DNA from: Rhodothermales bacterium | Lineage (GTDB): Bacteria > Bacteroidota > Rhodothermia > Rhodothermales > Bin80 | Direction of reading: 5' to 3' | Length of the DNA: 64,000 nt | Assembly: GCA_958296045.1 (NCBI GenBank) | Contig: CATQHT010000003.1 | Span: 693,246-757,245, forward strand | Part shown: positions 46,508 to 62,994 of the stretch, in pieces | Position numbering within the stretch: position 1 is the first letter of the stretch | Layout of the letters: each line of letters begins with the position of its first letter | The notes under the pieces: model-generated | The model's database searches: none | Seen by the model: only the letters and a program-made list of their open reading frames with translations | What the model was told of the DNA's origin: nothing | Translations under genes and position numbers: made by a program

Positions 46508-48301
46508 CTATCGGCGATCGGCATCGATTGATTGGGCCACGGCCTCAGCGCGCACGATAAGGGCCTCGATGGCTCCAAGACCTTGGTGCCAGAAGTCCGC
46601 ATCGCTCAGATCCATGCCAAGGCGTGCCACCAATGCATGCGGCCAGTCGCTACCTCCGGCCTCAAGGAGGGACAGGTACGCTTTAGGAAAGGTACCCGGA
46701 TCTTCTTCGTAGCGGGCATAAAGCGCGTGCACCAAAAGCTCTCCGAACGCATATGCATACACGTAGCCGGGTGTGTGCAAAAAATGCGGGATGTAGCTCC
46801 ACCAGTGCCGGTAATTGTCAGTCAAAGTCACACTGCCGCAAAACATGGCCCGCTGCGTTTCCATCCATACGTCACCAAATTGCCCGGCGGTCAGCTCACC
46901 CTTCTGGCGGCGCAGAGTGTGAATCCGATCCTCAAACCGGTTCATAGCCACCTGCCGGAACACCGTCGCAATGGTGTCATCGATTTTGGACACCAGTAAC
47001 GCCAGGCGGACCTGCGGATCTGACTCGCGCATGAGGAGGTCCTGAAATACCAAGAGTTCGCCGAAGATGGAGGCCATTTCCGCGGTTGTTAGCGGCGTGT
47101 CTGACTGTAGCACGCCCTGGCTGCGTGCCAGGTATTGGTGCACGCCATGCCCAAGCTCGTGCGCCAGTGTCTGCACATCCCGAGCTGTACCTGCATAGTT
47201 GAGCAGCACGTATGGATGGGCACTGGGAACGACGCCATGGCTAAATGCGCCTCCCTGCTTCCCCGGCTGCACGCTGGCATCAATCCACCGGTTGGCAAAG
47301 AAGAGGGCCGCCACCTCACTCATGCGCGGATGAAATTGCGCATAGGCGCTGAGCACGATGTCTTGGGCTTCTTTCCACCTGTAGCGGGTATCCGCATCGA
47401 GCAACGGCGCATACCGGTCGTAATCATACACCGTGTTGTACCCAAGGAGGCGCCGCTTGAGCGTATAGAACCGCCCCACCAAGTCGTATCGTTGGACCAC
47501 GGATGCTATCAGGGCCTCGGCGGTCTCATCGCTGATTTCGTTGGCCAGATTGCGGCTGGAAATCCACTCCTTGTAGCCACGCAGGCGATCCTTGTCGGCT
47601 TTTTCGCGAAGGAGTGTATTGAAGATGAATGTGAGCGTATGCTCTTGTGCCTTAAGGCCCTCAGTAAAGGCTTTGGCGGCACGCTGGCGCAGGGCGCGGT
47701 CACCATCGTGGAGCTTGACCAAGATGCCCTGCTGCGGCAGGTCCTGGCCGTCGAGGCGAAAGTGCAGCCCAGACATCGTTTCCGTGAAGAAGCGCACCCA
47801 TGCGCCATGTCCACTCAGGCTGGCAGTGGCTAGCACCTTTTCTTCCGCCTCTGAACGTAAGTGGTCCCGATAGCGTCGCTCCCGAATCAGGTAATGGCGG
47901 TATTTCGCGAGCGCGTCGGACTGCGTCAGCTCATGTGCGCATTTCTCGTCAATCCGAACCCACTCCAGCTCAAAAAACAGGATGGCTTTAGTGACCCTGT
48001 TACACTCTTCGCAGACTTTCTGCAGAAGGGCGCCCCGGGCCGCATCGCGCGTATTGGTGGACCAGTGCAGGTATGCATAAGCGTGTGCACGCCGTGCACG
48101 GTCCAGTACGGATTCGATCCACCCGAGCGCCCGGGCCAGCTCAGGCGCATCCAGCGCTGCCACGCGTCCTTTGAATGCTACAGCCAGTGCTTTTGCATCC
48201 TTAACCGCGGTTGCCAGGTCTGCGCTTAGCGCAGACTCATCGGCGTAGAGGTCGGACAGGTTCCACCTAACCTGCTCTGACCCGGTGGCAATACCGTCCA
48301 T
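46508..48301 (-). CDS. pepF: Oligoendopeptidase F family metallopeptidase (M3)
   Basis: A zinc peptidase of 597 residues that cleaves short peptides in the cytoplasm. The catalytic motif is HELGHGVH with the downstream Glu in TTAEMASIFGE. No signal peptide is seen. The helical N-terminal domain matches the PepF/M3 group (LSDLYADESALSADLATAV). Start ATG 48301. It converges on the DAHP synthase gene, with 88 bp between the two stops. Confidence 0.93.
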   Translation of the reverse strand: MDGIATGSEQVRWNLSDLYADESALSADLATAVKDAKALAVAFKGRVAALDAPELARALGWIESVLDRARRAHAYAYLHWSTNTRDAARGALLQKVCEECNRVTKAILFFELEWVRIDEKCAHELTQSDALAKYRHYLIRERRYRDHLRSEAEEKVLATASLSGHGAWVRFFTETMSGLHFRLDGQDLPQQGILVKLHDGDRALRQRAAKAFTEGLKAQEHTLTFIFNTLLREKADKDRLRGYKEWISSRNLANEISDETAEALIASVVQRYDLVGRFYTLKRRLLGYNTVYDYDRYAPLLDADTRYRWKEAQDIVLSAYAQFHPRMSEVAALFFANRWIDASVQPGKQGGAFSHGVVPSAHPYVLLNYAGTARDVQTLAHELGHGVHQYLARSQGVLQSDTPLTTAEMASIFGELLVFQDLLMRESDPQVRLALLVSKIDDTIATVFRQVAMNRFEDRIHTLRRQKGELTAGQFGDVWMETQRAMFCGSVTLTDNYRHWWSYIPHFLHTPGYVYAYAFGELLVHALYARYEEDPGTFPKAYLSLLEAGGSDWPHALVARLGMDLSDADFWHQGLGAIEALIVRAEAVAQSIDADRR

Positions 48302-48561: not shown

Positions 48562-48909
48562 ATGAGCCACTCCCAATACCGCTCCATCGCGTCGGACTCT
48601 GAGTATGCCGATGCCGCGGCGCGTTCCCACCACGAGGCTGTGCTCATATACAAGCACAGTTCGCTGTGCGAATTGTGTACCGAGGCTAAGGGTGAGATGC
48701 TCCGATTAACGCGCCCCGGTGATCCGCCTGTGTACGAAGTGGTGGTCCAGACCGCGCGCCCGCTTTCCAGCATGATCGAGAATGCGCTCAGCATTAGGCA
48801 CGAGTCGCCACAGGCCATCCTGCTTAGCAATGGGCAGCCGGTATTTCATGCATCGCATCGCGGTGTGACCGCCAAATCGGTCCGGAGCGCTATGGACCAG
48901 CTGCCGTGA
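48562..48909 (+). CDS. YtxJ-like thioredoxin-fold protein
   Basis: A 115-residue protein of the YtxJ/DUF2847 group. It opens with a thioredoxin-like strand and KHSSLCELCTEAKGEM, and ends in HESPQAILLSNGQPVFHASH, the group signature. YtxJ of Firmicutes is a monothiol protein proposed to act with bacillithiol. Here there are two Cys (36 and 39, CELC), a full redox pair. ATG 48562 is preferred; the frame is open to 48415 but without homology. The next gene starts inside its stop codon (GTGA overlap). It is the first gene of a six-gene overlapping array. Confidence 0.8.
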   Translation: MSHSQYRSIASDSEYADAAARSHHEAVLIYKHSSLCELCTEAKGEMLRLTRPGDPPVYEVVVQTARPLSSMIENALSIRHESPQAILLSNGQPVFHASHRGVTAKSVRSAMDQLP

Positions 48910-49406
48910 ATAAGGCAGCCGCGACAATTCTGGCGCTTAGCTGCTTTATAGCGCCGGTGCTCGCCCAGGAGAGGGATGTAGTCCGGTATGCCGGTGATTT
49001 CACCCTTCTGACCGCGGCAGGCGACTCCTTGCAGCTCTCGTCCCTACGCGGCACCGTAGTTCTGCTTAATCTGTGGGCGACCTGGTGCAAGCCATGCCTG
49101 GAAGAGATGCCCGACCTGGATGAGTTGCACCAGGAGCTCGAGCCGCAGGGATTCACCGTGATAGGCTTGGCGGTGGACGGAGAAAGGAAGGCCGCCATAG
49201 ACCGCTTCGTAGAGCGCCTGGAGGTGACATATCCGATCGTGTACGGCAGCACCGAGGTCGCTCAGGCAGTGCTTGGCGGCAACGCAATGCCCATCCTACC
49301 CACTACGCTGGTGCTAGACCAGAAGGGACGCATAACCGACCGTATCGTCGGTACCGTTCCGATTCGGCAGACGAAGCGCAACATTCAGGCATTGCTTCGC
49401 CAATAG
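48906..49406 (+). CDS. TlpA-like periplasmic thioredoxin
   Basis: A 166-residue exported thiol-disulfide reductase. GTG 48906 overlaps the YtxJ-like stop by four bases. A signal peptide (MNKAAATILALSCFIAPVLA) precedes a TlpA/ResA-type domain with LRGTVVLLNLWATWCKPC (Cys61, Cys64) and the cis-proline loop ILPTTLVL. It lies six bp before the first large VCBS protein and may act on Cys residues of the envelope proteins encoded downstream. That link is inferred from gene order. Confidence 0.87.
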   Translation: MNKAAATILALSCFIAPVLAQERDVVRYAGDFTLLTAAGDSLQLSSLRGTVVLLNLWATWCKPCLEEMPDLDELHQELEPQGFTVIGLAVDGERKAAIDRFVERLEVTYPIVYGSTEVAQAVLGGNAMPILPTTLVLDQKGRITDRIVGTVPIRQTKRNIQALLRQ

Positions 49407-49412
49407 CGCCTC

Positions 49413-51254
49413 ATGACGGACGGACTGCCGGATGGCAGGCGCTGCGCCACCATTGCCTTTGCCGTGCTCCTGTTGACCGGCTCCGCTCTTTCGGGCTGCG
49501 CACGAGACGAAGCGCTCTTTCGGCGACTGGCTCCCGCACGCACCGGCATCACGTTTGTCAACGCCCTGACCCCGTCGGAAACGCTCAACACCTACGTCTA
49601 TCGCAACTTTTACAACGGCGGCGCAGTGGCCATCGGGGACGTCAGCGGGGACGGGATGGCAGACCTGTTCTTCAGTGGCAATCAAGTGTCCAACCGGTTG
49701 TACCTGAATCGCGGCGACTTTCGCTTCGAAGATGTCACCCATGCCGCCGGGCTGACTTCTGCAGGCATCTGGACTACAGGAGTCACCATGGGCGACGTCA
49801 ATGGTGACGGATGGTTGGACCTGTATCTGTGCAAAGCCGGGCCGCCGGGCGGCCCTAGGCGTCACAATGAGCTCCTTATCAATAGCGGTCAAGGTACCTT
49901 CGCCGATAGTGCTAAGGCGTGGGGGCTGGCGATCGAAGCGCTGTCTGTGCATGCTTCCTTTCTGGACTACGACCTCGACGGCGACTTGGACCTGTACCTA
50001 TTGAGCAATCCGCTGCAAGCGCTCGACGAACTTGAGCCAGCCCCCGGGCTGCGTCACATCCCCGATCCCGGCGGCAACAGACTGTTCCGCAACGACCTTG
50101 CACCTCACGGCACACGCCGCTTTACGGACGTCACCCAGGAGGCAGGCATATACAGCAGCAGGATCGGTTTCGGGCTGGGCGTGTCCGTGAGCGACATAGA
50201 CAGGGACGGATGGCCCGACCTATACATCTCCAACGATTTTTTCGAGCGGGACTACCTGTACATCAACAACCGAGACGGCACGTTTAGCGAGTTACTGGCT
50301 CGATCAATGCCCTCGGTCAGCCTGAGCTCGATGGGCGGTGATGTGGCCGACCTCAACGGAGACGGATGGCCCGACATTTTTGTGTCCGACATGCTTCCGG
50401 CATCACAAGCGCGCCTGCAGTCGAAGATCTTTTTCCCCTCCTGGAAAGAAGAAAGGGCCAAGTTCGAGGCCGGGTACCATCACCAAGCGACACGCAACTC
50501 CCTTCAGCTGAGCCGTGGCATCAGCCCCGAAGGTACGCTCGTCTTTAGCAATGTAGCAAGGCTGCTGGGCATAGAAGCTACGGACTGGAGCTGGGGCGGG
50601 TTAATCGCCGACTTTGACCTGGATGGTCGACGAGACCTGTTTGTGCCCAACGGCATTTATAAGGACCTTCTGGATCAGGACTTTATCGGACGCATATCGA
50701 GCCGTGACACGCTGCAACGCATCATGCGCACCGCCGCCGATCCCATCATGGCTATCCTGGCACGCCTACCTTCAGAACCGTTGCCGAACGCGGTCTTTGC
50801 GCAGCGGGCCGCAATGGCCTTTGAGAACCTGAGCATGAGATGGGGCCTGGACGAGCCGGGATTTTCCAACGGAGCAGCCTACGGAGACTTGGACAACGAC
50901 GGGGACCTTGATCTGGTTACCAACAATGTTAATATGGAGGCCTTCGTATACGAGAACCGGGCGGACCGCAGAGCGTCAGGGCATTGGCTGAGCATCGTGC
51001 TCCAGGGGCGCGCGCCCAACACCATGGGAATCGGTACGCAGATCACCGCGTGGCATGACGGCCGCCAGTGGCATGTGGAGCAGCAGCCGGCGCGTGGCTT
51101 TCTCTCCAGCGTGGATCCCGTCCTGCATATGGGGCTTGGCCCAGTTACACTGCTTGACTCGGTTGTCGTTCACTGGAGCGGTGGCCAGCAGGTGCGGCTC
51201 AGGAATGTAGCCACCAGGCAGAGAATCAGAGTACAAGAAGATGACGACGGTTAG
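49413..51254 (+). CDS. VCBS/FG-GAP repeat lipoprotein with ASPIC-UnbV domain (short form)
   Basis: A 613-residue lipoprotein (lipobox ALSGC) of the CRTAC1-like group. It contains repeated FG-GAP/VCBS blades with calcium-type motifs such as DVNGDGWLDLY, DYDLDGDLDLYLL and DLDNDGDLDLVTNN, predicted to form a beta-propeller. An ASPIC/UnbV module ends the protein (GIGTQITAWHDGRQWHVEQQ, then LDSVVVHWSGGQ). It matches the first halves of the next two large proteins and lacks their second propeller half. The next gene overlaps its end by 14 bp. Function is unknown; surface carbohydrate or protein binding is plausible. Confidence 0.86.
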   Translation: MTDGLPDGRRCATIAFAVLLLTGSALSGCARDEALFRRLAPARTGITFVNALTPSETLNTYVYRNFYNGGAVAIGDVSGDGMADLFFSGNQVSNRLYLNRGDFRFEDVTHAAGLTSAGIWTTGVTMGDVNGDGWLDLYLCKAGPPGGPRRHNELLINSGQGTFADSAKAWGLAIEALSVHASFLDYDLDGDLDLYLLSNPLQALDELEPAPGLRHIPDPGGNRLFRNDLAPHGTRRFTDVTQEAGIYSSRIGFGLGVSVSDIDRDGWPDLYISNDFFERDYLYINNRDGTFSELLARSMPSVSLSSMGGDVADLNGDGWPDIFVSDMLPASQARLQSKIFFPSWKEERAKFEAGYHHQATRNSLQLSRGISPEGTLVFSNVARLLGIEATDWSWGGLIADFDLDGRRDLFVPNGIYKDLLDQDFIGRISSRDTLQRIMRTAADPIMAILARLPSEPLPNAVFAQRAAMAFENLSMRWGLDEPGFSNGAAYGDLDNDGDLDLVTNNVNMEAFVYENRADRRASGHWLSIVLQGRAPNTMGIGTQITAWHDGRQWHVEQQPARGFLSSVDPVLHMGLGPVTLLDSVVVHWSGGQQVRLRNVATRQRIRVQEDDDG

Positions 51255-51840
51255 GGGACCGATCATCTTGTGCGCGCTGGCACTTGCGGCTACCACATCG
51301 ATTATGGCGTGCAGCGATGGCGGCTCCGACAGTGAACGAATACGCACACAAGAGGACTCCCTGTTTCTGGGGTACTGGCTGGGCATGCCGCGCGACTCGT
51401 TCTATGCTCATAGCTGGGCACTGAACCGGAAGGGACTCATCATGCAGGGACCCAGGAACCAGCATATCAAACTCTCACTGGACACTACTTTCGCGCACCC
51501 GGCCACGCTCCTTTTCTATCCCGACTTTTTTGACGGAAAAATCGCGCGGATGCGCATGCGGTTCAGCTATGACGGATGGGCTCCGTGGAATAAGTTTCTT
51601 TTTGCGGACACGATGATAGTCGACATCGTAGAGCTCATGCAGGCATGGTATGGGGAAGGCTTTGGCAGTCGCCCAGTCCAGGGGCCCTTCGGCAGAATCG
51701 TTCCGCAATACACCAACATGGGCCAAGCACGGCGCATCAGCATACAAGTGCTGGACGACCGCGAGGTCGGTGTCCTTATTACAGACCTTGGAGCAGAGCG
51801 ACGCATGGCCGAAGAGACGGACACGGATGTTCCAGACTAG
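51241..51840 (+). CDS. Small hypothetical lipoprotein
   Basis: A 199-residue protein with a signal peptide and lipobox SIMAC. The rest shows beta-rich strings (LFLGYWLGMPRDSFYAHSW, MRMRFSYDGWAPWNKFLF) and no family I recognise. It overlaps the preceding gene by 14 bp and the following gene by 14 bp, so it is translated from the same message as the VCBS lipoproteins. It may be a partner or accessory of those proteins. No function is assigned. Confidence 0.72.
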   Translation: MTTVRGPIILCALALAATTSIMACSDGGSDSERIRTQEDSLFLGYWLGMPRDSFYAHSWALNRKGLIMQGPRNQHIKLSLDTTFAHPATLLFYPDFFDGKIARMRMRFSYDGWAPWNKFLFADTMIVDIVELMQAWYGEGFGSRPVQGPFGRIVPQYTNMGQARRISIQVLDDREVGVLITDLGAERRMAEETDTDVPD

Positions 51841-54800
51841 GCTCGTTCTTTGGGCCATCGCCCTGATCCCGTTGGCATGTGCCCAGGACGACCTGGCGCC
51901 GCTCTTCCGGCTTCGCCTAGATTCCGGGGTGACGTTCGTCAACAGCCTGCGCTACGACCCAGACTTCAACGTCTACCGTTACCGCAACTTCTACAACGGA
52001 GGGGGCGTGGCGCTAGGTGATGTCAACGGTGACGAGAGGCTGGACATCTTTTTGACCGCCAACCAGGGCCCCAACCGGCTGTACCTGAACCAGGGAGGCT
52101 GGACCTTCGAAGACGCCACCGAACAGGCCGGTGTGGCAGGCATGCGCGCCTGGTCCACCGGCGTGAGTATGGCCGACGTTAATGGCGACGGGTGGCTGGA
52201 CATCTATGTGTGCAACTCTGGCATCGTGTCTGGAGACGATCAGCGCAATGAGCTGTACATCAACCGCGGCGACGCGACCTTTGTCGAACAGGCTGCGGCC
52301 TATGGCCTGGACGACACAGGGCTTTCCATCCATGGCGTATTCTTCGACTACGACCGCGATGGCGATTTAGATCTCTACCTGGTCAATAACTCGTTTAAGA
52401 GTATTGAGGACTTCGATCAGGAAATCAACACCAGGCACCTGCGTCACCATGCGGGAGGAGATAGGCTTTACCGCAACGACGGCAGCCGATTCCATGATGT
52501 GAGTCAGGAGGCTGGCATTTATGGGAGCGAAATCGGGTTTGGCCTTGGGGTTTCTGTCGCCGACGCCAATCGTGACGGATGGCCAGACCTGTACGTTTCC
52601 AATGACTTTTTTGAGCGCGACTACTTTTACCTCAACCGCGGCGACGGCACTTTCGAGGAAGTGCTAGAAACCAGTATGCGCAGCGTCAGCGCAGCGGCTA
52701 TGGGCGCGGATATGGCAGACCTTACGGGCAACGGCTATCCCGACATCTTTGTCACCGACATGCTCCCGGCACTTGAAGGGCGCCTGAAGACTGTAACTTC
52801 TTTCGATGACTGGCCTCGCTACCGCAGATATATACGGGACGACTACTTCCATCAGTTCACCCGCAACACACTTCAGATTGGTCTGGGGCCAGGGCCCCAT
52901 GTCGCTGCCCAGTTTATGGAGGCTGGGCGGTATGCTACCGTGGAGGCCAGCGACTGGAGCTGGGGCGCGCTCATCGCCGACTTTGACCACGACGGATATC
53001 GCGACATCTTTGTAGCAAACGGCGTCGTGCGGGACCTCACCAATGCGGACTACCTGGTAGAGGTCAACCGGCCCGCAATGGTGGCTAAATTGGCCTCGGG
53101 CGACTCAGTGCACTGGGCACGGCTCATTGACATGATTCCTTCGGTGTCCGTATCCAATCACATGTTTGCCGGCCTTGGCACCTTACGCTTTGAGGACCGT
53201 AGCCAGCCCTGGGGCCTGGATACGCCGGGATTTTCCAACGGAAGCGCCTATGGAGATATCGACAATGACGGTGACCTGGACCTTGTAGTAAGCCATACAG
53301 GCCAGAAGGCCAGCCTGTACGAGAATCGGGTGACCGAGGTCTGGCCGGAGCACGCCTGGCTGCAGGTGGTCTTCGAAGGTATGCCTCCCAACATTTTCGG
53401 GGTCGGTGCCCAAGTTACGGCCTGGGCGGAGGGTCGCTCGTGGTATGCTGAGCAGCAGCCCACAAGAGGGTACCAGTCCGGCAGCGACCCGGTGCTGCAC
53501 TTCGGGCTAGGTCTGGGCGTCAATATGCTGGATTCGCTTGTCGTCTATTGGTCAGGCGGCCGTGTGAACCGCCTCATAGACATCGCCACATATCAGCGGT
53601 TGCGCGTGCGCGAGGATGCGGCCCGCGGGCCATTTGCGGCATGGCCGCCGACGGCTACGCCGGCCATAGACGAAGATGAGCCATGGCTGACACCGGTCAG
53701 CCCCCAATCCCTGGGGCTCCTGTGGCGACACCAGGAAAACACCTATAACGACTTTGAGCAGCAGCCGCTTCTCTTTCATATGCGCTCTACAGAGGGACCT
53801 GCAGTCTGCGTGGGGGACGCGAACGGCGACGGACGGCAGGACCTGTACCTGGGCGGCGCCCGGCGTCAGCCCGGCTCCCTCTGGCTGCAGACCAGGTCGG
53901 GCCGCTTCATGCGTTCGCAGCAGCCTTTGATAGCTCAGGACAGCACCCACGAAGACATCGCGTGCGCCTGGCTTGACCACGACGCAGATGGCGATCAGGA
54001 CCTGTATGTGGCAAGCGGCAGCAGCGAACTGCCCGCAAGCAGCTCGCTCTTGATCGACCGGATCTATGTTAACGACGGACGCGGCACCCTGGAGCGTCAT
54101 TCCTTTGCATATACGGGACGCCAGGGCTTTGAGCCGACCAGAGCCTTGGCCGTCGGAGATGTCAACCAGGACCAAATCCCGGACCTGTTTGTCGGCGCGC
54201 GCCTGCGCCCCTTTGCCTTCGGTCTGCCTACGGACGGTCACCTGCTCTTGGGACAGCCTCTTGAAGGGTTCCGCGAAGCCACCGACACGCATGCACCGCA
54301 GCTCCGGGAGCTGGGGATGATCACCGCGGCCACCTGGGGCGATGTAGATCTCGACGGCGACGTGGACCTAGTGGTGGCGGGCGAATGGATGCCGCTCATG
54401 GTGTTCTTCAATGACGGGGGGCGCCTGGTACGTGGTCCCGCCGGTCTGGACGGTACACGCGGCTTGTGGCAATCTCTCGACGGCGCGGATCTCGACGGCG
54501 ACGGCGATCTGGACTTTGTGGCTGGTAACCATGGACTTAACAGCCGTTTCCGGGCTGCCCCGGAAACGCCGATGGAGATGTGGACCGCCGACTTTGACCG
54601 CAACGGGCGCGTGGAACAGGTCATCACCCGCTACAGCAAGGGGGAGCCCTACCCTATGGCACTCCGTCACGACCTGGTCGAGCAGATCCCTGCGCTGCTG
54701 GCGCTGTTTCCGACGTATGCCTCATTTGCTGGAGCCACGGTACGGGACATATTTGTCGAAGCACAGCTAAGCGAAGCCATGCACCTTACGGTGACGGAGC

Positions 54801-55156
54801 TCAGAAGCCTGGCACTTATCAATGACGGCACCGGGCACTTCACTACGGTACCTTTGCCTTTTGAAGCGCAGATGAGCCCGATCTATGCCGTGCTCGCATT
54901 GCCTCTGGGTCCTGATCCCCATCCTGTCATCCTTTTGGGCGGCAACCTTTACGAGGCTAAGCCTCAGGTTGGGCGTTACGATGCCAGCTACGGGACCACA
55001 TTAAGCCACACGTTAGAACCCGTACGATGGACCCGGTCCGGGTTCTGGATTGACGGTGCCGCGCGTGCGATCGTGCCCTTGCGCGCGGGTGAGCGCAACC
55101 TTGTCGTAGTGGCCCGCAACAACGATTCCCTGCGCGTCTTCGCCTATGACCCGTAG
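51827..55156 (+). CDS. VCBS/FG-GAP repeat protein with ASPIC-UnbV domain (long form)
   Basis: A 1109-residue envelope protein. ATG 51827 gives MFQTRLVLWAIALIPLACAQ, a signal with a weak lipobox (PLAC). The frame continues upstream to 51650 but overlaps the small lipoprotein. Two propeller halves of FG-GAP repeats (DVNGDERLDIFL, DYDRDGDLDLYLV, DLTGNGYPDIFVT, later DANGDGRQDLYLGG and DVDLDGDVDLVVAG) flank an ASPIC/UnbV module near residues 500-590. The first half aligns with the 613-residue neighbour and with the following paralogue. Such proteins often accompany SusC/SusD systems in Bacteroidota. No SusC/D is in the window. The next gene overlaps by 11 bp. Confidence 0.87.
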   Translation: MFQTRLVLWAIALIPLACAQDDLAPLFRLRLDSGVTFVNSLRYDPDFNVYRYRNFYNGGGVALGDVNGDERLDIFLTANQGPNRLYLNQGGWTFEDATEQAGVAGMRAWSTGVSMADVNGDGWLDIYVCNSGIVSGDDQRNELYINRGDATFVEQAAAYGLDDTGLSIHGVFFDYDRDGDLDLYLVNNSFKSIEDFDQEINTRHLRHHAGGDRLYRNDGSRFHDVSQEAGIYGSEIGFGLGVSVADANRDGWPDLYVSNDFFERDYFYLNRGDGTFEEVLETSMRSVSAAAMGADMADLTGNGYPDIFVTDMLPALEGRLKTVTSFDDWPRYRRYIRDDYFHQFTRNTLQIGLGPGPHVAAQFMEAGRYATVEASDWSWGALIADFDHDGYRDIFVANGVVRDLTNADYLVEVNRPAMVAKLASGDSVHWARLIDMIPSVSVSNHMFAGLGTLRFEDRSQPWGLDTPGFSNGSAYGDIDNDGDLDLVVSHTGQKASLYENRVTEVWPEHAWLQVVFEGMPPNIFGVGAQVTAWAEGRSWYAEQQPTRGYQSGSDPVLHFGLGLGVNMLDSLVVYWSGGRVNRLIDIATYQRLRVREDAARGPFAAWPPTATPAIDEDEPWLTPVSPQSLGLLWRHQENTYNDFEQQPLLFHMRSTEGPAVCVGDANGDGRQDLYLGGARRQPGSLWLQTRSGRFMRSQQPLIAQDSTHEDIACAWLDHDADGDQDLYVASGSSELPASSSLLIDRIYVNDGRGTLERHSFAYTGRQGFEPTRALAVGDVNQDQIPDLFVGARLRPFAFGLPTDGHLLLGQPLEGFREATDTHAPQLRELGMITAATWGDVDLDGDVDLVVAGEWMPLMVFFNDGGRLVRGPAGLDGTRGLWQSLDGADLDGDGDLDFVAGNHGLNSRFRAAPETPMEMWTADFDRNGRVEQVITRYSKGEPYPMALRHDLVEQIPALLALFPTYASFAGATVRDIFVEAQLSEAMHLTVTELRSLALINDGTGHFTTVPLPFEAQMSPIYAVLALPLGPDPHPVILLGGNLYEAKPQVGRYDASYGTTLSHTLEPVRWTRSGFWIDGAARAIVPLRAGERNLVVVARNNDSLRVFAYDP

Positions 55157-58100
55157 CACAGGGCAGGCGGCGCTCATGGTCGCCTTGCTTGCCGCGGCCT
55201 GCGGCGAGCCCACAGAAGAGACGCTATTCACCAGGCTCGAAGCCTCAGAAAGTGGCATCGGGTTTGTGAATGAGTTGGCTTTCCAGGACGACTTCAACAT
55301 CATAGAGTACCTCTATTTCTATGATGGCGGGGGTGTTGCAATCGGCGATGTCAACCGTGACGGGCTCCAAGACATCTTTTTAACAGGTAACCAGGTATCT
55401 AACCGGCTGTACCTCAACCGTGCAGATCTTCGTTTTGAGGATGCTACGGAGGCCGCTGGTCTGGCAAGCACGGGGTGGTCAACCGGTGCCACTATGGCCG
55501 ATGTCGACGGCGACGGATGGCTAGACCTGTACGTGTGCCAGGTCAGCTACAAGAACCAGAGCGGACGAAATCTGCTGTATCTGAACCAACAGGACGGCAC
55601 ATTCGAGGAGGCGGCTTCCCGGCTGGGGCTCGATTTTGAGGGGCTCTCCACCCAGGCCGCGTTTCTTGATTATGACCGTGACGGCGACCTGGACCTGTAC
55701 CTGCTCAACCATTCGGTGCACACGCGGGGATCGTTTGTGCCAGCGTGGCGCCGCACGGTCGATGCGCCTAGGGTCGGCGACCGCCTCTATCGCAATGAAG
55801 GCGGAGAGTCGTTCACCAACGTCACCTCGCAGGCGCGCATTCACAGCAGTGCCCTTGGGTATGGACTGGGCCTGGCAGTAAGCGATATCGACGACGACGG
55901 GTGGCCAGACATCTACGTCGGCAATGACTTCCACGAGGACGACTATCTGTATCTCAACCAGCAGGATGGGACCTTTGAGGAAGTCTTGCGCCATGTCGCT
56001 GGCCACACGAGCCAGTCGACCATGGGGGTGGATATCGCAGACATCAATGGAGATCTCTGGCCCGACATCATTGCACTTGACATGATGCCTGCGGATTGGG
56101 CCACATACCAGGCGTCCGGGGGACCAGACGAGGAAGGTATAGCGGCCATCAAACGGCGTCTGGGCTACGGCTCTCAGGTGACGCGCAACACAGTGCAGAT
56201 GCACCGCGGCTTAGGCGCCGACGGCTATCCGCGATTCAGCGAAGTCGGTGCTTACCTGGGGCTACATGCCACGGACTGGAGCTGGGCACCTCTCTTGGCC
56301 GACCTTGACGGTGATGGATGGAAGGACCTGTTCGTGACTAATGGCATCCCGCGACGTCCGAATGATCTCGACTATGTCGCCTTTGTCGGGCTGCCTTCTA
56401 CGCAGCGCATCTTAAAGGAAGGCTCTGCCGCGGATATCCAGCGGGTCACCCGGCGCATGCCAAAAGGGCATGCATCCAACTACGCCTTTAAGAGCCTTGG
56501 GGGATTGTCTTACATCGATGTGTCGTCGGCCTGGGGACTCCACATGGTAGGCAGCTCTCAGGGCGCTGCCTGGGGAGACCTCGACAATGACGGCGACCTG
56601 GATCTGGTAGTGAGCCACATCAACGCCCACGCCTCGGTCTATCGCAACAACACCGTCGATGCACACCACCTCTCGGTATCACTTCAGGGCAATGCGCCCA
56701 ACACTTCCGGTATCGGCAGCCGCGTTGTCGTTTATGCAGGCGGACGCGCGCAGATGCAGGAGCAATTCCCGACGCGCGGTTTCCAGTCTTCCGTGGCGCA
56801 TATATTGACTTTTGGATTGGGTACAGCCGCCGTTGCGGATTCCGTAGTTGTGCGATGGCCCAGCGGCGGCACGCAGACTCTACGGAGCATCCGGGCCAAT
56901 CAGCGCTTGGTGCTAGATGAGGGTGTGACATCACCGGCTGCACTCGCGGTGCGGCTCCCTGCCAGCGAGCCGCTATTGATCGAAGTGCCTGACCGCATCC
57001 CTTGGCGCCACGCTGAAAACTCGTTTGAAGACCTGGTGCGTGAGCCGCTGTTGCTTTACAGGATCTCTACGCAGGGTCCGGCCCTCGCGGTCGCAGACGC
57101 AGACGGTGACGGACTGGACGACATCTTCCTTGGTGGCGCCCGGGGGCAGGCCGGGGTACTGTTCTTTGGTGGGACCACCCGGTCGTTGCAGCCCGCACTC
57201 GATGGCGATGCATTGCATGAGGATGTTGGGGCCACCTTTCTTGATGCCGACCTGGACGGCGACGCGGACCTGTATGTCGTGAGCGGGGGCGGGGAGCCGG
57301 ATTCTGCGCTTTGGGCCGACCGCCTGTATTTCAATGACGGTGCTGGTACCTTTACGAAGAGTGCTGGCCGCCTGCCTGCGCTGCATGCCAACGGCTGCTG
57401 CGTGCAGGCGGCCGACTTCGACCTGGACGGCGATGCAGACCTCTTTGTGGCTGCGCGATCGCTTCCGGGCCACTATGGTGTGCGGCCATCCAGTGCCCTC
57501 CTGGTCAACGACGGAACGGGTTTGTTTCGCGACGCTACAGCAGAATTCGCTGCGCCGCTCTTGAACCTGGGGATGGTAACCGCTGCTGCATGGGCGAATG
57601 TCACCGGCGATGCCGCGCCAGACCTCGTCGTGGTAGGAGAATGGATGCCTATCACTATCCTGGCCAATCGTGACAGCTACCTTTACGATGTGACCAATGA
57701 GCTCGGGCTGGCGGATACGGACGGATGGTGGCAGAGCGTGCTGGCAGGCGATTTTGACGGGGACGGCGACACGGACCTAGCGGCTGGCAACCTCGGCCTG
57801 AACCATGTGCTTCCCACTCCGATGCATCTATATGTCCACGATTTCGACCAGGACGGGCGCAGCGACCCGATAATAACCTGGGGTGATCCGAGCCGGCTCT
57901 GGGCGCGCCGGGACATCCTTTCGCGTCAGATGCCTGCGCTTGCTTCGGTGGCGCCCTCCTATAGCGCATATGCAGGCATGAATGCCAGCGCGTTGGTCAA
58001 CACGTCATCCAAAGAGCCTCTTACCGCGCACACATCTGCCTCCGCGTGGCTGGAAAATACCGGTACCTTCGCGGTGCACGCCTTGCCAGATGCCGCGCAG

Positions 58101-58397
58101 TGGGCTCCCATTATGGGCATGGTACACCATGATATCGACGGCAACGGCTTACGAGACGTCGTTGCTGTCGGAAACCTTTATGGTGCTGGCGCGGCCCTCG
58201 GTCCGTTGGATGCCAGCTTCGGCACGGTTCTGCTGCAGACCAGCCCGGGGACCTTTATTGCGGCTGACGCGCAACCGTGGACTATGCGAGGCGATGCTCG
58301 CGGTGTACGCCTATTCAGTTCCGGCGTGTCAGAGATGGCGCTTGTAGTCGCACATTCGGACGGGCAGCCACAGGTATTCCGTCTGCGTGCGCGCTGA
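55146..58397 (+). CDS. VCBS/FG-GAP repeat lipoprotein with ASPIC-UnbV domain (long form)
   Basis: The third paralogue, 1083 residues, with lipobox AAAC in an Ala-rich signal sequence. The layout matches the preceding gene: first set of FG-GAP repeats (DVNRDGLQDIFLTG, DVDGDGWLDLYVC, DYDRDGDLDLYLL), ASPIC/UnbV module near residues 510-590 (GIGSRVVVYAGGRAQMQEQ, VVVRWPSGG), then a second repeat set (DADGDGLDDIFLGG, DADLDGDADLYVV). It ends the overlapping lipoprotein array. A gap of 81 bp separates it from the symporter gene, where TTGTCC and TATATT may mark a new promoter. Ligand unknown. Confidence 0.87.
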   Translation: MTRSTGQAALMVALLAAACGEPTEETLFTRLEASESGIGFVNELAFQDDFNIIEYLYFYDGGGVAIGDVNRDGLQDIFLTGNQVSNRLYLNRADLRFEDATEAAGLASTGWSTGATMADVDGDGWLDLYVCQVSYKNQSGRNLLYLNQQDGTFEEAASRLGLDFEGLSTQAAFLDYDRDGDLDLYLLNHSVHTRGSFVPAWRRTVDAPRVGDRLYRNEGGESFTNVTSQARIHSSALGYGLGLAVSDIDDDGWPDIYVGNDFHEDDYLYLNQQDGTFEEVLRHVAGHTSQSTMGVDIADINGDLWPDIIALDMMPADWATYQASGGPDEEGIAAIKRRLGYGSQVTRNTVQMHRGLGADGYPRFSEVGAYLGLHATDWSWAPLLADLDGDGWKDLFVTNGIPRRPNDLDYVAFVGLPSTQRILKEGSAADIQRVTRRMPKGHASNYAFKSLGGLSYIDVSSAWGLHMVGSSQGAAWGDLDNDGDLDLVVSHINAHASVYRNNTVDAHHLSVSLQGNAPNTSGIGSRVVVYAGGRAQMQEQFPTRGFQSSVAHILTFGLGTAAVADSVVVRWPSGGTQTLRSIRANQRLVLDEGVTSPAALAVRLPASEPLLIEVPDRIPWRHAENSFEDLVREPLLLYRISTQGPALAVADADGDGLDDIFLGGARGQAGVLFFGGTTRSLQPALDGDALHEDVGATFLDADLDGDADLYVVSGGGEPDSALWADRLYFNDGAGTFTKSAGRLPALHANGCCVQAADFDLDGDADLFVAARSLPGHYGVRPSSALLVNDGTGLFRDATAEFAAPLLNLGMVTAAAWANVTGDAAPDLVVVGEWMPITILANRDSYLYDVTNELGLADTDGWWQSVLAGDFDGDGDTDLAAGNLGLNHVLPTPMHLYVHDFDQDGRSDPIITWGDPSRLWARRDILSRQMPALASVAPSYSAYAGMNASALVNTSSKEPLTAHTSASAWLENTGTFAVHALPDAAQWAPIMGMVHHDIDGNGLRDVVAVGNLYGAGAALGPLDASFGTVLLQTSPGTFIAADAQPWTMRGDARGVRLFSSGVSEMALVVAHSDGQPQVFRLRAR

Positions 58398-58478
58398 TCC
58401 CATGGCGGATCTGGGCACAGCGGGGCTCCGCGCCAATTTGTCCTATATTGCACGCGGAAAAGGATACAAGTCCCGGCC

Positions 58479-60290
58479 ATGCAACTGGTCACACTCGACT
58501 GGGTCGTCGTAGCGGTATACGGCGCAATCACGGTACTGCTCGGCGTCTGGTTCACGCGGCGCGCCAGCGGAAGTATGGAAGACTTCTTTGTGGCTGGGCG
58601 GACGCTGCCATGGTGGCTCGCCGGTACCTCCATCGCAGCCACTTGGTTTGCGACCGATGCGCCGCTTGTCGTGTCGTCCTTGGTAAGGCAGGAGGGCATC
58701 TTCGGCAACTGGCTCTGGTGGTACGAGGCAGCTGGAGTCATGATGCTCGTCTTCTTCTATGCCCGCCTGTGGCGCCGCGCGCGCATCATCACCGACGCCG
58801 AATTTATTGAGCTACGCTATGCGGGACGCCCTGCAGCACTGTTGCGCGGATTTTCTGCCATATACCAGGGTGTGCTAAAGAACTGTGTGGTGATGGGCTG
58901 GGTCATGTTAGCCATGGTGAAGTTTAGCCAAGTGCTTCTGGGGTGGGACCCGGTGTTCACGCTCCTGATTTGCGGCATTCTCGCAGTGATTTACACGGTG
59001 GCCTCGGGCCTGTGGGGTGTCGTAGCCACCGACCTTCTCCAGTTCACGACCGGCCTTATCGGAACGATGATTCTGGCTGGCATCGTGCTCTACCATTTTG
59101 GAGGTCCTGCAGAGATGGCACGCGGCATCCAGGACTTTCACGACAATCCAGCCACGCTGGACATCTTTCCCAACCCCGCAAACCTGAGCTCACTGGAGGC
59201 GGTCTCTTTCTTCTTGCTCATCTTCGTCCTCTGGACACGCAGCGGCCAGGGCGATGGATACATCGCGCAACGTCTTTTTGCGACGCGCAACGAGAAGCAA
59301 TCGCTGTTGGCTGCCTTCTGGTTCTGCTTTGCTGGCGTGGTACTTATGACTTGGCCATGGATCATCGTCGGTTTGGGATCAGTGCTGGTATTTCCAGTGG
59401 CAACGGCTTCGCCCGCGCTGGCTGCAGATCCAGAGCTTGCATATCCGATGATGATCGGGGAGATGATGCCGGCCGGGCTGCGCGGCCTCCTGGTGGCTTC
59501 TTTCCTTGCCGCATTTATGAGCACAATGGACACCCATCTGTGCTGGGGAGCTTCCTACTTGACCAACGATGTCTATCGCCGCTTCATGCGGCCTAACAAG
59601 TCAGAGCGCCACTACGTAGTCGCGTCGCGCGCTGGAGTGCTCGTCCTCGTCACGCTGGCGATCATTACGGCCTGGCAGATGGAGTCCATTGAGCGCGGCT
59701 GGATCTACGTCATCGAAATCACGGCTGGCATTGCCGTGGTATGGCTGCTGCGATGGTACTGGTGGAGGGTCAACGCCTGGGCCGAAATCAGCGCCATTGT
59801 AGGCTCTTTTATGGTCGCTAACGGCTTCATATGGGCCAAGCTTCTGGCGGCCGTCGGCCTGTTGTCTGGCAATGCGCTCACGGCTGTCCAGACATTCTAC
59901 AGCAGTGACTGGGGTATCGTCCGTGCTGTGTGCATCCTGGTATTCTGCACCCTGGTATGGATCGTCGTCGCCTTGAGCACGAAGCCGGACGCGGAAGAGA
60001 AGCTAATTGAATTCTATCGGCGGGTCCGCCCGGGCGGCTGGTGGGGCCCGATTGCGGCCAAATGTCCAGACATCGACACCGGACCTTCGGCCGCACGCAA
60101 ATGGATGGCTTTCGGGCTGGGCGTGCTGTTCATTTGGTCCAGCCTGCTTGGCGTCGGATACGTTATGACCGGCCGTACTCCTGCCGGTGTCGCGCTGTTG
60201 GCCCTTTCGGCGCTGGCCGCCGCTGCTACGATTGCCGTAGCCCTTAAGCTTACCGCTGCAGTGCCGCAAGCTGCCACCCACAACAATTAA
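58479..60290 (+). CDS. Sodium:solute symporter (SSS family), second copy
   Basis: A 603-residue Na+-coupled transporter, paralogous to the gene at 30966 (shared WWLAGTS opening in TM1-2, similar ARLWRRARI... motif and the same length). It has about 13-14 helices and a cytoplasmic C-terminal extension. Several charged residues lie in the early helices (DAPLVVSSLVRQEG). It lies 81 bp after the VCBS array and 13 bp before the PIG-L-like gene, so uptake and deacetylation may be coupled. Substrate unknown; the gene context points to a sugar derivative. Confidence 0.9.
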   Translation: MQLVTLDWVVVAVYGAITVLLGVWFTRRASGSMEDFFVAGRTLPWWLAGTSIAATWFATDAPLVVSSLVRQEGIFGNWLWWYEAAGVMMLVFFYARLWRRARIITDAEFIELRYAGRPAALLRGFSAIYQGVLKNCVVMGWVMLAMVKFSQVLLGWDPVFTLLICGILAVIYTVASGLWGVVATDLLQFTTGLIGTMILAGIVLYHFGGPAEMARGIQDFHDNPATLDIFPNPANLSSLEAVSFFLLIFVLWTRSGQGDGYIAQRLFATRNEKQSLLAAFWFCFAGVVLMTWPWIIVGLGSVLVFPVATASPALAADPELAYPMMIGEMMPAGLRGLLVASFLAAFMSTMDTHLCWGASYLTNDVYRRFMRPNKSERHYVVASRAGVLVLVTLAIITAWQMESIERGWIYVIEITAGIAVVWLLRWYWWRVNAWAEISAIVGSFMVANGFIWAKLLAAVGLLSGNALTAVQTFYSSDWGIVRAVCILVFCTLVWIVVALSTKPDAEEKLIEFYRRVRPGGWWGPIAAKCPDIDTGPSAARKWMAFGLGVLFIWSSLLGVGYVMTGRTPAGVALLALSALAAAATIAVALKLTAAVPQAATHNN

Positions 60291-60303
60291 AGAATCGCGA
60301 TCG

Positions 60304-62994
60304 ATGCGCTATCTGCTGCTGATTCTTGGCGCAATTCTTTGTGCCCCAATGGTCTGGGCCCAGGATGCTCCCAATGCCCCAGACCGGGTGCTTACCGCTA
60401 CGCTTAACTCGGAGGGCGGCTCCTTTCTTGACGTGGACAAAGGGGCTACCGGACTGTTGCAGCAGCTTCTCAAGCTGCGTACTACCGCGAGCATGCTTCA
60501 TACGACGGCGCATCCAGATGACGAACACGCCGGACTGCTCACCTACTTGAGCCGTGGCATGGGAGCGAGGACGGCCTTGCTCGCGCTCAATCGCGGGGAA
60601 GCGGGTGCGAATGCCATCGGTCCAGAGCTGTTTGATGCGCTGGGGCTTATCCGGACTGAGGAGCTGCGCCTTTCAGACCGTTACTATGGACTCGACGACC
60701 AGTACTATTCTGGAGCGTTGGACTATGGTTATTCCAAGACGCTGGAGGAATCGATGCGCAGCTGGGACCGCGACCTGGTACTGGCTGAGATGGTGCGCGT
60801 CATCCGCATGAACCGGCCGCTGGTCGTCATTTCGCGCTTTCATGCATCGCTGCGCGACGGCCACGGCAATCATCAGGCGGTAGGTCAGCTGACACCCGAG
60901 GCCGTAAAGGCTGCTGCCGACCCGGCACAGTTCCCGGAGCAGATTATCGAAGAGGGCCTGCGCCCATGGTCTGTACCAAAGCTGTATCGCGGTGGCGTGA
61001 GGGAGAATGAGCTGTGGCATGTCAAGCTAGACGCCAGCGTTTACAGCCCTTGGCTGGGAAGGACCTACCAGAACTTCGGTGCCTACGGTCTCAGTCTCCA
61101 GCGGTCACAGACCAGCGGTCGAACACGCACGCGCATGGGTCCGGTCCCCTACTATTATGAGCTCTTGGGCACAGAGTCGGATACCCAGGAGAGCAGCTTC
61201 TTTGACGGACTGGACACCTCGCTTTCTGGCGTATTCGCGCTTGTTGGGGAGGAAGTACCGGACGGCGCCACTGCCGTGCTGCAGTATGTTGAAACGCACA
61301 TCGAGCGGGCGCTGGAGCATGTAAATATGCTGCGCCCGCACGAGGTCGCGCCGGGTTTGGCTGCTGGGCTTACAGGCGTCCGCAATGTTCTGGCAATGAT
61401 CCCCGCGGCTGGAGAGGTCGCATTCATGCTGCGCATCAAGGAGCAGCAGCTAATGCATGCGCTAACAACGTCCATTGGCATGGCCTGTGAGGCTACGGCG
61501 GTACCATCAAGCGCCGGTGATGGTGGCGCCGCTTGGTGGAGCCCTCAGCCTGTGATGGGCCCTGTCGTTAGAGGGCAGGATTTCCGCGTGGATGTAGCGT
61601 GCACTCATGCGCCAGAGGCTTCCCCCCAGGGTCTTGCAGCCACCTTGGAAGACCCCACAGGGCGGTCGATAGATGCTTGGGGACTGACCGCACACAAGCC
61701 AGATGGCGAGGCTGCATACTTCAAGGTGAGTTTCGACCTTAAGGTGCCCGATGACGCGGAGTACTCCATGCCCTATTACTTTCGTGACTCCGTGCGCGAG
61801 AACCACTACCAGTACCGCGACCTTACTTGGCGCCACCTGCCTTCTCGGCCGGCCGCACTGGTGACCCGCATCGCCTGGGAGGTGGACGGCACGGACGTGA
61901 CGCTGCATGTTCCTGTCCAGACGCGGGAGGCCAACCTGCCCAACGGCTATGTCATGCGCAAGCTCCAGGTAGTTCCGGCGCTTGCGGTGAGCGCCACGCC
62001 CCGGCACCGCGTTGTCGTTGCGGGTACGGGCGCTAGCACCTTTCACGTTGCGGTCGACGTCCTAGGCAACAGCGATACGGTGCTGGACGGAACGCTCCGC
62101 TTGGTGCTTCCCGAAGGGTGGACCAGCGCGCCAGAGGCACACGAATTTAGCTTTGATCAGGCGGGCCAGCGTGCGGCTTTCAACTTCGAAGTGACTGTGG
62201 CGGGACTTGGTACCGAAGCCCGCACCATCGGTGCTGTGGCCACTGCCATGGGAGCGGAGTTTACCGAGGGTTACCAGATTGTCCGGCACAGCCATATGGA
62301 GACCCGGTACCTGTACCGCTCCGCGACGATCGAGGTGCGCGGCCTTGATGTTGCTATCGCGCCCGACCTGCAGGTCGGGTACGTGATGGGCGTGGGTGAC
62401 GAGGTGCCCAGCGGCATTGAGCAACTCGGAGCGGAGGTCACCCTGCTGTCGTCAGCGGATCTGGCGGGCAAAGACCTGTCGACCCTTGACGTTATTGTAG
62501 TCGGCACGCGCGCTTATGCCGTGCGCCAGGACCTTCACACCTATAACCGGCGCCTTTTGGACTTTGCTCAGAACGGTGGCAACCTTATTGTGCTCTACCA
62601 GACCCAGGAGTTCGTCCCAGGGGATATGGCACCGTTTGACGCTTTGCTTCCTCGCGGTGCCGAGGAAGTGTCGGAGGAGGATGCGGGCGTAACTATCCTG
62701 GTGCCGGAGTCGCCGATATTTCAGTATCCGAACAGTATTACCGCTGCCGACTTTGACGGATGGGTAGAGCAGCGCGGCTCCAAGTTTTTCACCGAGTGGG
62801 ATGCCGCGTACACGCCACTGATCCAGATGAACGACACCGGGCAGGACCCGCAGGAAGGGGCTTTTCTGACCGCGACCCATGGCAAGGGGCACTACACGTA
62901 TGCTGCGTTGGCTTTTCACCGGCAGCTGCCGTACAGCGTGACAGGAGCCTACCGACTTTTCGCCAACCTGCTGTCTTTGGGCCATGCGCCGTAG
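60304..62994 (+). CDS. PIG-L family deacetylase with large C-terminal extension, secreted
   Basis: An exported 896-residue protein with a clean signal peptide (MRYLLLILGAILCAPMVWAQ). Residues 60-330 form a PIG-L/LmbE-type metal-dependent deacetylase: AHPDDE at 69-74 and the second metal motif in DGHGNHQAVG. These enzymes remove acetyl groups from N-acetylglucosamine-type substrates. The C-terminal two-thirds is beta-rich, with an Ig-like stretch and a final ThuA/glutamine-amidotransferase-like domain (VVGTRAYAVRQDLHTYNRRL, GGNLIVLYQTQEF). It starts 13 bp after the symporter. It may deacetylate a glycan before uptake by the symporter; inference from gene order only. Confidence 0.85.
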   Translation: MRYLLLILGAILCAPMVWAQDAPNAPDRVLTATLNSEGGSFLDVDKGATGLLQQLLKLRTTASMLHTTAHPDDEHAGLLTYLSRGMGARTALLALNRGEAGANAIGPELFDALGLIRTEELRLSDRYYGLDDQYYSGALDYGYSKTLEESMRSWDRDLVLAEMVRVIRMNRPLVVISRFHASLRDGHGNHQAVGQLTPEAVKAAADPAQFPEQIIEEGLRPWSVPKLYRGGVRENELWHVKLDASVYSPWLGRTYQNFGAYGLSLQRSQTSGRTRTRMGPVPYYYELLGTESDTQESSFFDGLDTSLSGVFALVGEEVPDGATAVLQYVETHIERALEHVNMLRPHEVAPGLAAGLTGVRNVLAMIPAAGEVAFMLRIKEQQLMHALTTSIGMACEATAVPSSAGDGGAAWWSPQPVMGPVVRGQDFRVDVACTHAPEASPQGLAATLEDPTGRSIDAWGLTAHKPDGEAAYFKVSFDLKVPDDAEYSMPYYFRDSVRENHYQYRDLTWRHLPSRPAALVTRIAWEVDGTDVTLHVPVQTREANLPNGYVMRKLQVVPALAVSATPRHRVVVAGTGASTFHVAVDVLGNSDTVLDGTLRLVLPEGWTSAPEAHEFSFDQAGQRAAFNFEVTVAGLGTEARTIGAVATAMGAEFTEGYQIVRHSHMETRYLYRSATIEVRGLDVAIAPDLQVGYVMGVGDEVPSGIEQLGAEVTLLSSADLAGKDLSTLDVIVVGTRAYAVRQDLHTYNRRLLDFAQNGGNLIVLYQTQEFVPGDMAPFDALLPRGAEEVSEEDAGVTILVPESPIFQYPNSITAADFDGWVEQRGSKFFTEWDAAYTPLIQMNDTGQDPQEGAFLTATHGKGHYTYAALAFHRQLPYSVTGAYRLFANLLSLGHAP

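Follow-up and report, generated by a model that had tools for sequence, protein, structure and literature searches.

Do genes that overlap or nearly touch on one strand necessarily belong to one system? The question is raised by a 64,000-nucleotide stretch of a Rhodothermales bacterium genome (assembly GCA_958296045.1, CATQHT010000003.1:693,246-757,245, forward strand; hereafter the window). Here, eight consecutive genes encode the redox proteins YtxJ and TlpA, three VCBS/ASPIC proteins (VCBS1 to VCBS3), a small lipoprotein (SLP), a sodium symporter and a PIG-L-type deacetylase. An earlier interpretation, the sequence-only reading, treated them as a single envelope system. We confirmed all eight genes on the forward strand (Table 1). 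Neighbours among the first six overlap by 4, 14, 14 and 11 bp, with one 6-bp gap, and Pfam and NCBIfam profiles bore out the families assigned to the genes. As a single system, however, the run did not stand: its genes form three separate blocks in relatives, namely an uptake cassette, a linked but optional symporter-PIG-L pair and the two redox genes. We consider it likely that the window holds half of a split outer-membrane uptake locus, resembling a polysaccharide utilization locus (PUL), and that a rearrangement brought it next to an unrelated redox pair. Below, G000 denotes the genome under study and G001 onward its relatives; C, f and L denote contigs, families and fetched loci.

The cassette was traced through 114 genomes of the order Rhodothermales, 16 of them in the same family. 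SLP was found in 15 of these 16 and in no other family of the order genomes. VCBS1, SLP and VCBS2 stood together in all 15 SLP-bearing genomes, with VCBS2 directly 3' of SLP across the family, and VCBS3 accompanied them in 14; the genes mostly overlapped. In 12 of the 15, the VCBS1 and SLP genes abut or share 4-14 bp, so that the overlaps inside VCBS1-SLP-VCBS2-VCBS3 are more than chance. Scans for promoters and terminators gave signals no more frequent than chance.

The association extends well beyond the family. A scan of named GTDB genomes with an SLP profile returned 53 loci, in Rhodothermales, Balneolaceae, Saprospiraceae, Chitinophagaceae, Cyclobacteriaceae and Lutibacter, the commonest order being SusC-SusD-VCBS-SLP-VCBS(-VCBS) on one strand. 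An even draw of 395 genomes over the phylum contained 27 SLP carriers, of which 18 lie outside the family. Each of these 18 had a VCBS gene adjoining SLP or within one gene of it, and 15 had SusC-SusD in the same locus. A PAP2 (haloperoxidase/phosphatase-type) protein followed VCBS3 or lay near it in five of these carriers and a PIG-L gene was in the locus of one; no carrier had a symporter orthologue, and none had a TlpA or YtxJ match (open reading frames below 110 aa were uncalled, so a short YtxJ could be missed).

The SusC-SusD partner of G000 lies outside the window. Its SusD (C3:800431-802122) is a single orthologue, 77% identical to the cassette-adjacent SusD of G004, where the homologue beside the cassette passes TIGR04056. 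It is in tandem with SusC (C3:797335-800430) on the same strand, and the whole GH4-SusC-SusD set, which includes a glycoside hydrolase (GH) of family 4, occupies C3:795904-802122, 41 kb downstream of the cassette and on the same strand. GH4 is directly upstream of SusC in G012, G013, G015 and G016, as it is in G000. On one contig of G012 the order runs VCBS3, symporter, PIG-L, an opposite-strand 854-aa gene, GH4, SusC and SusD, and G013 and G015 agree with it across contig ends. The SusC-SusD pair lies together with the cassette, upstream of it, in G002, G004, G005 and G016, and about 8-11 kb past PIG-L in G014, whose order also agrees with that of G012. Given the matching GH4-SusC-SusD 41 kb downstream and the contiguous order in G012, the window holds the left half of a PUL-like uptake locus opened by insertion. 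The intervening stretch of about 37 kb between PIG-L and GH4-SusC-SusD (C3:756236-793292; L013, L149), where relatives have a few genes at most, contains group II intron reverse transcriptase, Schlafen/AlbA, AAA/PHP, GmrSD and Eco57I-type restriction genes; 3' of SusD lies an IS110-like transposase gene. Of the features used to define a PUL, a tandem SusC-SusD pair and a co-located carbohydrate-active enzyme (GH4) are present; a contiguous single locus, seen from VCBS3 to SusD in G012, is interrupted in G000 (by about 41 kb) and G014 (about 11 kb).

In four genera, the symporter and PIG-L genes share an ancestral locus with the cassette and SusCD and are placed between the cassette and GH4-SusCD. 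The symporter gene is 3' of VCBS3 in G000, G012, G014 and G015, and its orthologue (at least 76% identity) co-occurs with a long PIG-L protein in nine family genomes. Their membership is nevertheless not obligatory, since G003 and G006-G010 keep the cassette and lack both. G002 has PIG-L alone, interrupted by one stop codon. Three g2 genomes (G004 C84, G005 C17, G011 C37) have a second PIG-L copy, broken by several stop codons, beside intact symporter genes, an apparent decay of the module. The two genes are a linked but dispensable accessory module. VCBS arrays without the other genes, which the sequence-only reading had named as evidence against itself, were therefore found in full with respect to the redox genes and in part with respect to the symporter and deacetylase.

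The symporter scores 145.1 bits against a cut-off of 22.8 for PF00474, and its nearest solved structures are vSGLT/SGLT (2xq2, E 2.8e-25). PIG-L exceeds the PF02585 cut-off with 49.7 bits and has both motifs intact (AHPDDE at 69, HGNH at 187). GH4 carries a CHG signature, and its nearest structure is the alpha-glucosidase AglA; GH4 enzymes of the class with this motif act on unphosphorylated glycosides. Together, the vSGLT-like symporter and the AglA-like GH4 fit a system that takes up an unphosphorylated glycoside. In one genome from outside the family, G024, the symporter gene overlaps GH4 by 4 bp. Overall, the SusC-SusD partner, the GH4 gene beside it and the place of symporter and PIG-L in the ancestral locus support the earlier proposal of envelope uptake of a carbohydrate-type ligand. 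A second symporter of the same family, 42% identical to the one at 58479-60290, is encoded at 30966-32777 of the window.

The redox pair has a different history. YtxJ passes TIGR04019 (82.7 versus 77.25 bits), matches Pfam BrxC (PF11009), has no signal peptide and occurs in 78 of the 114 order genomes; of 21 relatives examined, 14 had the YtxJ-TlpA pair. Thirteen further family genomes have YtxJ; in 12 of them the gene lies within about 130 bp of an M3 peptidase gene, and in G014 the distance is about 1.2 kb. Similarly, YtxJ is at most 300 bp from the M3 peptidase gene in families f3, f9, f10 and f12, often with TlpA adjoining; in f2 and in two f12 genomes, YtxJ-TlpA stands without the peptidase gene. 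The cassette is usually located elsewhere in the family genomes. Among the relatives examined, VCBS genes lie beside YtxJ-TlpA only in G014, as in G000, and the tight TlpA-VCBS1 junction was found in G000 alone. As YtxJ is paired with the M3 peptidase elsewhere without VCBS genes, the redox-VCBS junction is local, derived and common to two genera. YtxJ and TlpA are housekeeping neighbours, with the M3 peptidase as ancestral neighbour, and have no part in the uptake pathway.

All three VCBS proteins are above the Pfam cut-offs for FG-GAP and UnbV_ASPIC. VCBS1 corresponds to one CRTAC1-like half, has six calcium-type DxDxDG loops and matches CRTAC1 by sequence (PDB 9etn, E 2.8e-11). An AlphaFold2 (AF2) model of VCBS3, with a mean predicted local distance difference test score (pLDDT) of 64, matches murine CRTAC1 (9etn; E 3e-24, template modelling score 0.70 to target). 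Sequence and modelled fold thus identify the VCBS proteins as predicted CRTAC1-like propeller lipoproteins. The SLP family alignment (A1) has 40 invariant columns, and the AF2 model of SLP reaches pLDDT 83; no Pfam, NCBIfam or PDB relative was found by sequence, and a fold search of the PDB gave no match at E<=1e-3. By these searches, SLP belongs to an undescribed family. All four proteins begin with a hydrophobic stretch ending in a cysteine, of the lipoprotein type, and TlpA and PIG-L resemble ordinary exported proteins.

The core of the proposed system would be SusC (the TonB-dependent barrel), SusD (the lid) and the lipoproteins VCBS1, SLP, VCBS2 and VCBS3. By analogy with utilisomes and with BtuG on BtuB, the most likely arrangement is that the four lipoproteins sit on or around SusCD as an accessory layer. 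In this layer, the VCBS proteins, as CRTAC1-like calcium-type beta-propellers, would capture or position the substrate, and SLP would serve as a small adaptor whose synthesis is coupled to that of its neighbours by overlapping translation. SusCD would draw the substrate, most likely a glycoside, into the periplasm, where an N-acyl or N-acetyl group is then probably cleaved off by the exported PIG-L. The SGLT-like Na+ symporter would carry the unphosphorylated product into the cytoplasm, to be cleaved by GH4, which is predicted to be cytoplasmic.

Several observations weigh against this reading. The VCBS3 model is poor, and its CRTAC1-like half alone is usable. Taking acidic residues after the lipid cysteine as the usual surface-export sign, we found aspartate or glutamate at positions +2 to +7 in 47% for SusD, 21% for VCBS and 19% for SLP, against a protein background of 13-15%; the signal, clear on SusD, is weak on VCBS and SLP and leaves their surface location uncertain. 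These proteins may instead face the periplasm. G008 and G011 have the cassette and no close SusD in their draft assemblies. Finally, the cassette has different neighbouring genes in other genomes (PAP2, GMC oxidoreductase, 3-keto-disaccharide hydrolase, GH32, S9 peptidase), which imply no single substrate class.

We weighed these points together with the alternatives. That all eight genes form one functional envelope system for an amino-sugar ligand, in which the redox pair keeps the VCBS proteins, the deacetylase and the lipoprotein reduced, would account for the unbroken forward-strand run, the 4-bp YtxJ/TlpA overlap, the 6-bp TlpA/VCBS1 gap and the same neighbourhood in G014. It is very improbable, however, as YtxJ-TlpA is a separate block: in every other relative examined it lies by the M3 peptidase gene or on its own, with no VCBS genes around it. 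YtxJ, lacking a signal, is cytoplasmic; the only cysteines of SLP are those of its signal peptide and lipid anchor, and each VCBS protein has one to three besides such cysteines. BshC is encoded far from YtxJ, which therefore fits general bacillithiol metabolism. Synteny and cysteine content thus led us to reject redox upkeep of envelope proteins. We also rejected a BshB/Mca-like recycling of bacillithiol by YtxJ and PIG-L: PIG-L falls far below the thiol-sugar deacetylase cut-offs (MshB, 32.6 versus 224.35 bits; Mca, 25.5 versus 277.15), BshC is elsewhere, and YtxJ is unlinked to PIG-L in most relatives.

The remaining alternatives accept the cassette and differ on what it does or what belongs to it. 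FG-GAP/VCBS propellers occur in adhesins and some lyases, and the enzymes beside the cassette vary (PAP2, GH53, GH32), as would suit extracellular enzymes, adhesins or a display layer merely co-regulated with SusCD and forming no import complex. The fixed order beside SusC-SusD across very distant genomes and the precedents of lipoproteins bound to TonB-dependent transporters (PMC7618045, PMC10404256) make this improbable. It is somewhat easier to imagine, yet still unlikely, that the symporter and PIG-L are chance neighbours of the SusCD-VCBS core and serve another pathway. Genomes G003 and G006-G010, the absence of the symporter orthologue from all 18 phylum-wide carriers, and PIG-L relatives in f7 and f15, two families in which the cassette was not found, speak for it. 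Conversely, the two genes co-occur and sit between VCBS3 and GH4-SusCD in G012, and, contig breaks or insertions aside, their placement is the same in G000, G014 and G015; G004 has PIG-L upstream of SusC, and other PIG-L genes lie in the cassette locus of G016 and Rhodohalobacter.

Table 1 Genes of the run and the divergent neighbour, with positions in the window
Feature	Position	Strand	Evidence and context
M3-family oligoendopeptidase	46508..48301	-	TIGR02290 above cut-off; divergent to YtxJ; next to YtxJ in relatives from f1, f3, f9, f10 and f12; outside uptake system
YtxJ / BrxC-like bacilliredoxin	48562..48909	+	TIGR04019, PF11009; CELC motif; cytoplasmic
TlpA/ResA-like periplasmic thioredoxin	48906..49406	+	PF00578/PF08534; WCKPC; signal peptide; 4 bp overlap with YtxJ
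VCBS1 lipoprotein, 613 aa	49413..51254	+	PF13517 (FG-GAP), PF07593 (UnbV_ASPIC); 6 bp gap after TlpA
SLP small lipoprotein, 199 aa, lipid Cys24	51241..51840	+	14 bp overlap with VCBS1
VCBS2 lipoprotein, 1109 aa	51827..55156	+	FG-GAP, UnbV_ASPIC and second FG-GAP half; 14 bp overlap with SLP
VCBS3 lipoprotein, 1083 aa	55146..58397	+	FG-GAP, UnbV_ASPIC and second FG-GAP half; 11 bp overlap with VCBS2
SSS (solute:sodium symporter family) sodium:solute symporter	58479..60290	+	PF00474; 81 bp gap after VCBS3
Exported PIG-L-type zinc deacetylase, C-terminal extension	60304..62994	+	PF02585; 13 bp gap after symporter

Other loci add to the picture of the cassette's surroundings. In Algoriphagus, Saprospiraceae-type and Ekhidna loci (L130, L124, L145, L274, L275, L278, L283, L285), the gene immediately or shortly after VCBS3 encodes a PAP2-superfamily protein of about 450 aa. 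The Chitinophagaceae loci L118, L123 and L139 encode a GMC-type oxidoreductase, and L118 also a 3-keto-disaccharide hydrolase, which suggests a 3-keto-glycoside route. In G008, a GH53 gene with a type IX secretion system (T9SS) sorting tail stands between VCBS1 and SLP (L062:8036-9373). A homologue of MmeI-type restriction-methylases is encoded at 33130-35949 of the window on the reverse strand, and its relatives adjoin VCBS1 in G008 and G009 (L062, L074). G000 has further VCBS/ASPIC arrays at C1:33146-36699, after a PorP/SprF-type protein, and at C2:737292-745022, after a TonB-dependent receptor and a weak SusD match.

No function is established for VCBS/ASPIC proteins, common as they are in these bacteria; a SusC-SusD-VCBS-SLP-VCBS(-VCBS) order that stays fixed across distant genomes offers one that can be tested. 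SLP, small and usually single-copy, is a marker that eases finding and pulling down the system. More broadly, the chances seem about even that SLP and paired VCBS/ASPIC propellers make up an accessory complex, conserved and so far undescribed, for a whole SusCD branch in Bacteroidota, Balneolota and Rhodothermota, a "propeller utilisome" with SLP as dedicated adaptor and exchangeable partner enzymes (PIG-L/GH4, PAP2, GMC/3-keto hydrolase). The locus also carries a caution: overlapping genes need not be one system, and the operon-like run here links an uptake cassette to a housekeeping redox pair.

We found no paper on a SusCD-VCBS/ASPIC association in the open-access literature, a coverage outside which most subscription journals fall; the SusCD principle is already known, and the VCBS-SLP accessory set seems not to have been described in the literature so covered. 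As for the single components, YtxJ resembles the YtxJ/BrxC bacilliredoxins in passing the family cut-off in a genome that encodes BshC, but has a CxxC instead of a monothiol site and stands outside the uptake locus. VCBS1-3 share the FG-GAP propeller and ASPIC architecture of CRTAC1 and ASPIC-UnbV proteins; unlike these, they are predicted bacterial lipoproteins tied to SusCD, two of the three with a second FG-GAP half. As a whole, the locus resembles the SusCD-lipoprotein utilisomes for levan and dextran of B. thetaiotaomicron (PMC7618045) in combining SusC-SusD, further co-encoded lipoproteins and a glycosidase. It differs in that G000 has a locus split by about 41 kb and a predicted cytoplasmic GH4; its accessory lipoproteins are VCBS/ASPIC propellers and the undescribed SLP, with no surface GH or known surface glycan-binding protein seen. 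The closest parallel for the propellers is BtuG, a beta-propeller surface lipoprotein that is bound to the TonB-dependent transporter BtuB and captures its ligand (PMC10404256). In G000, a comparable pairing of propeller lipoprotein and transporter is suggested by gene order; BtuG, however, is one small seven-bladed propeller for vitamin B12, whereas here two to three large VCBS/ASPIC proteins would accompany SusC-SusD.

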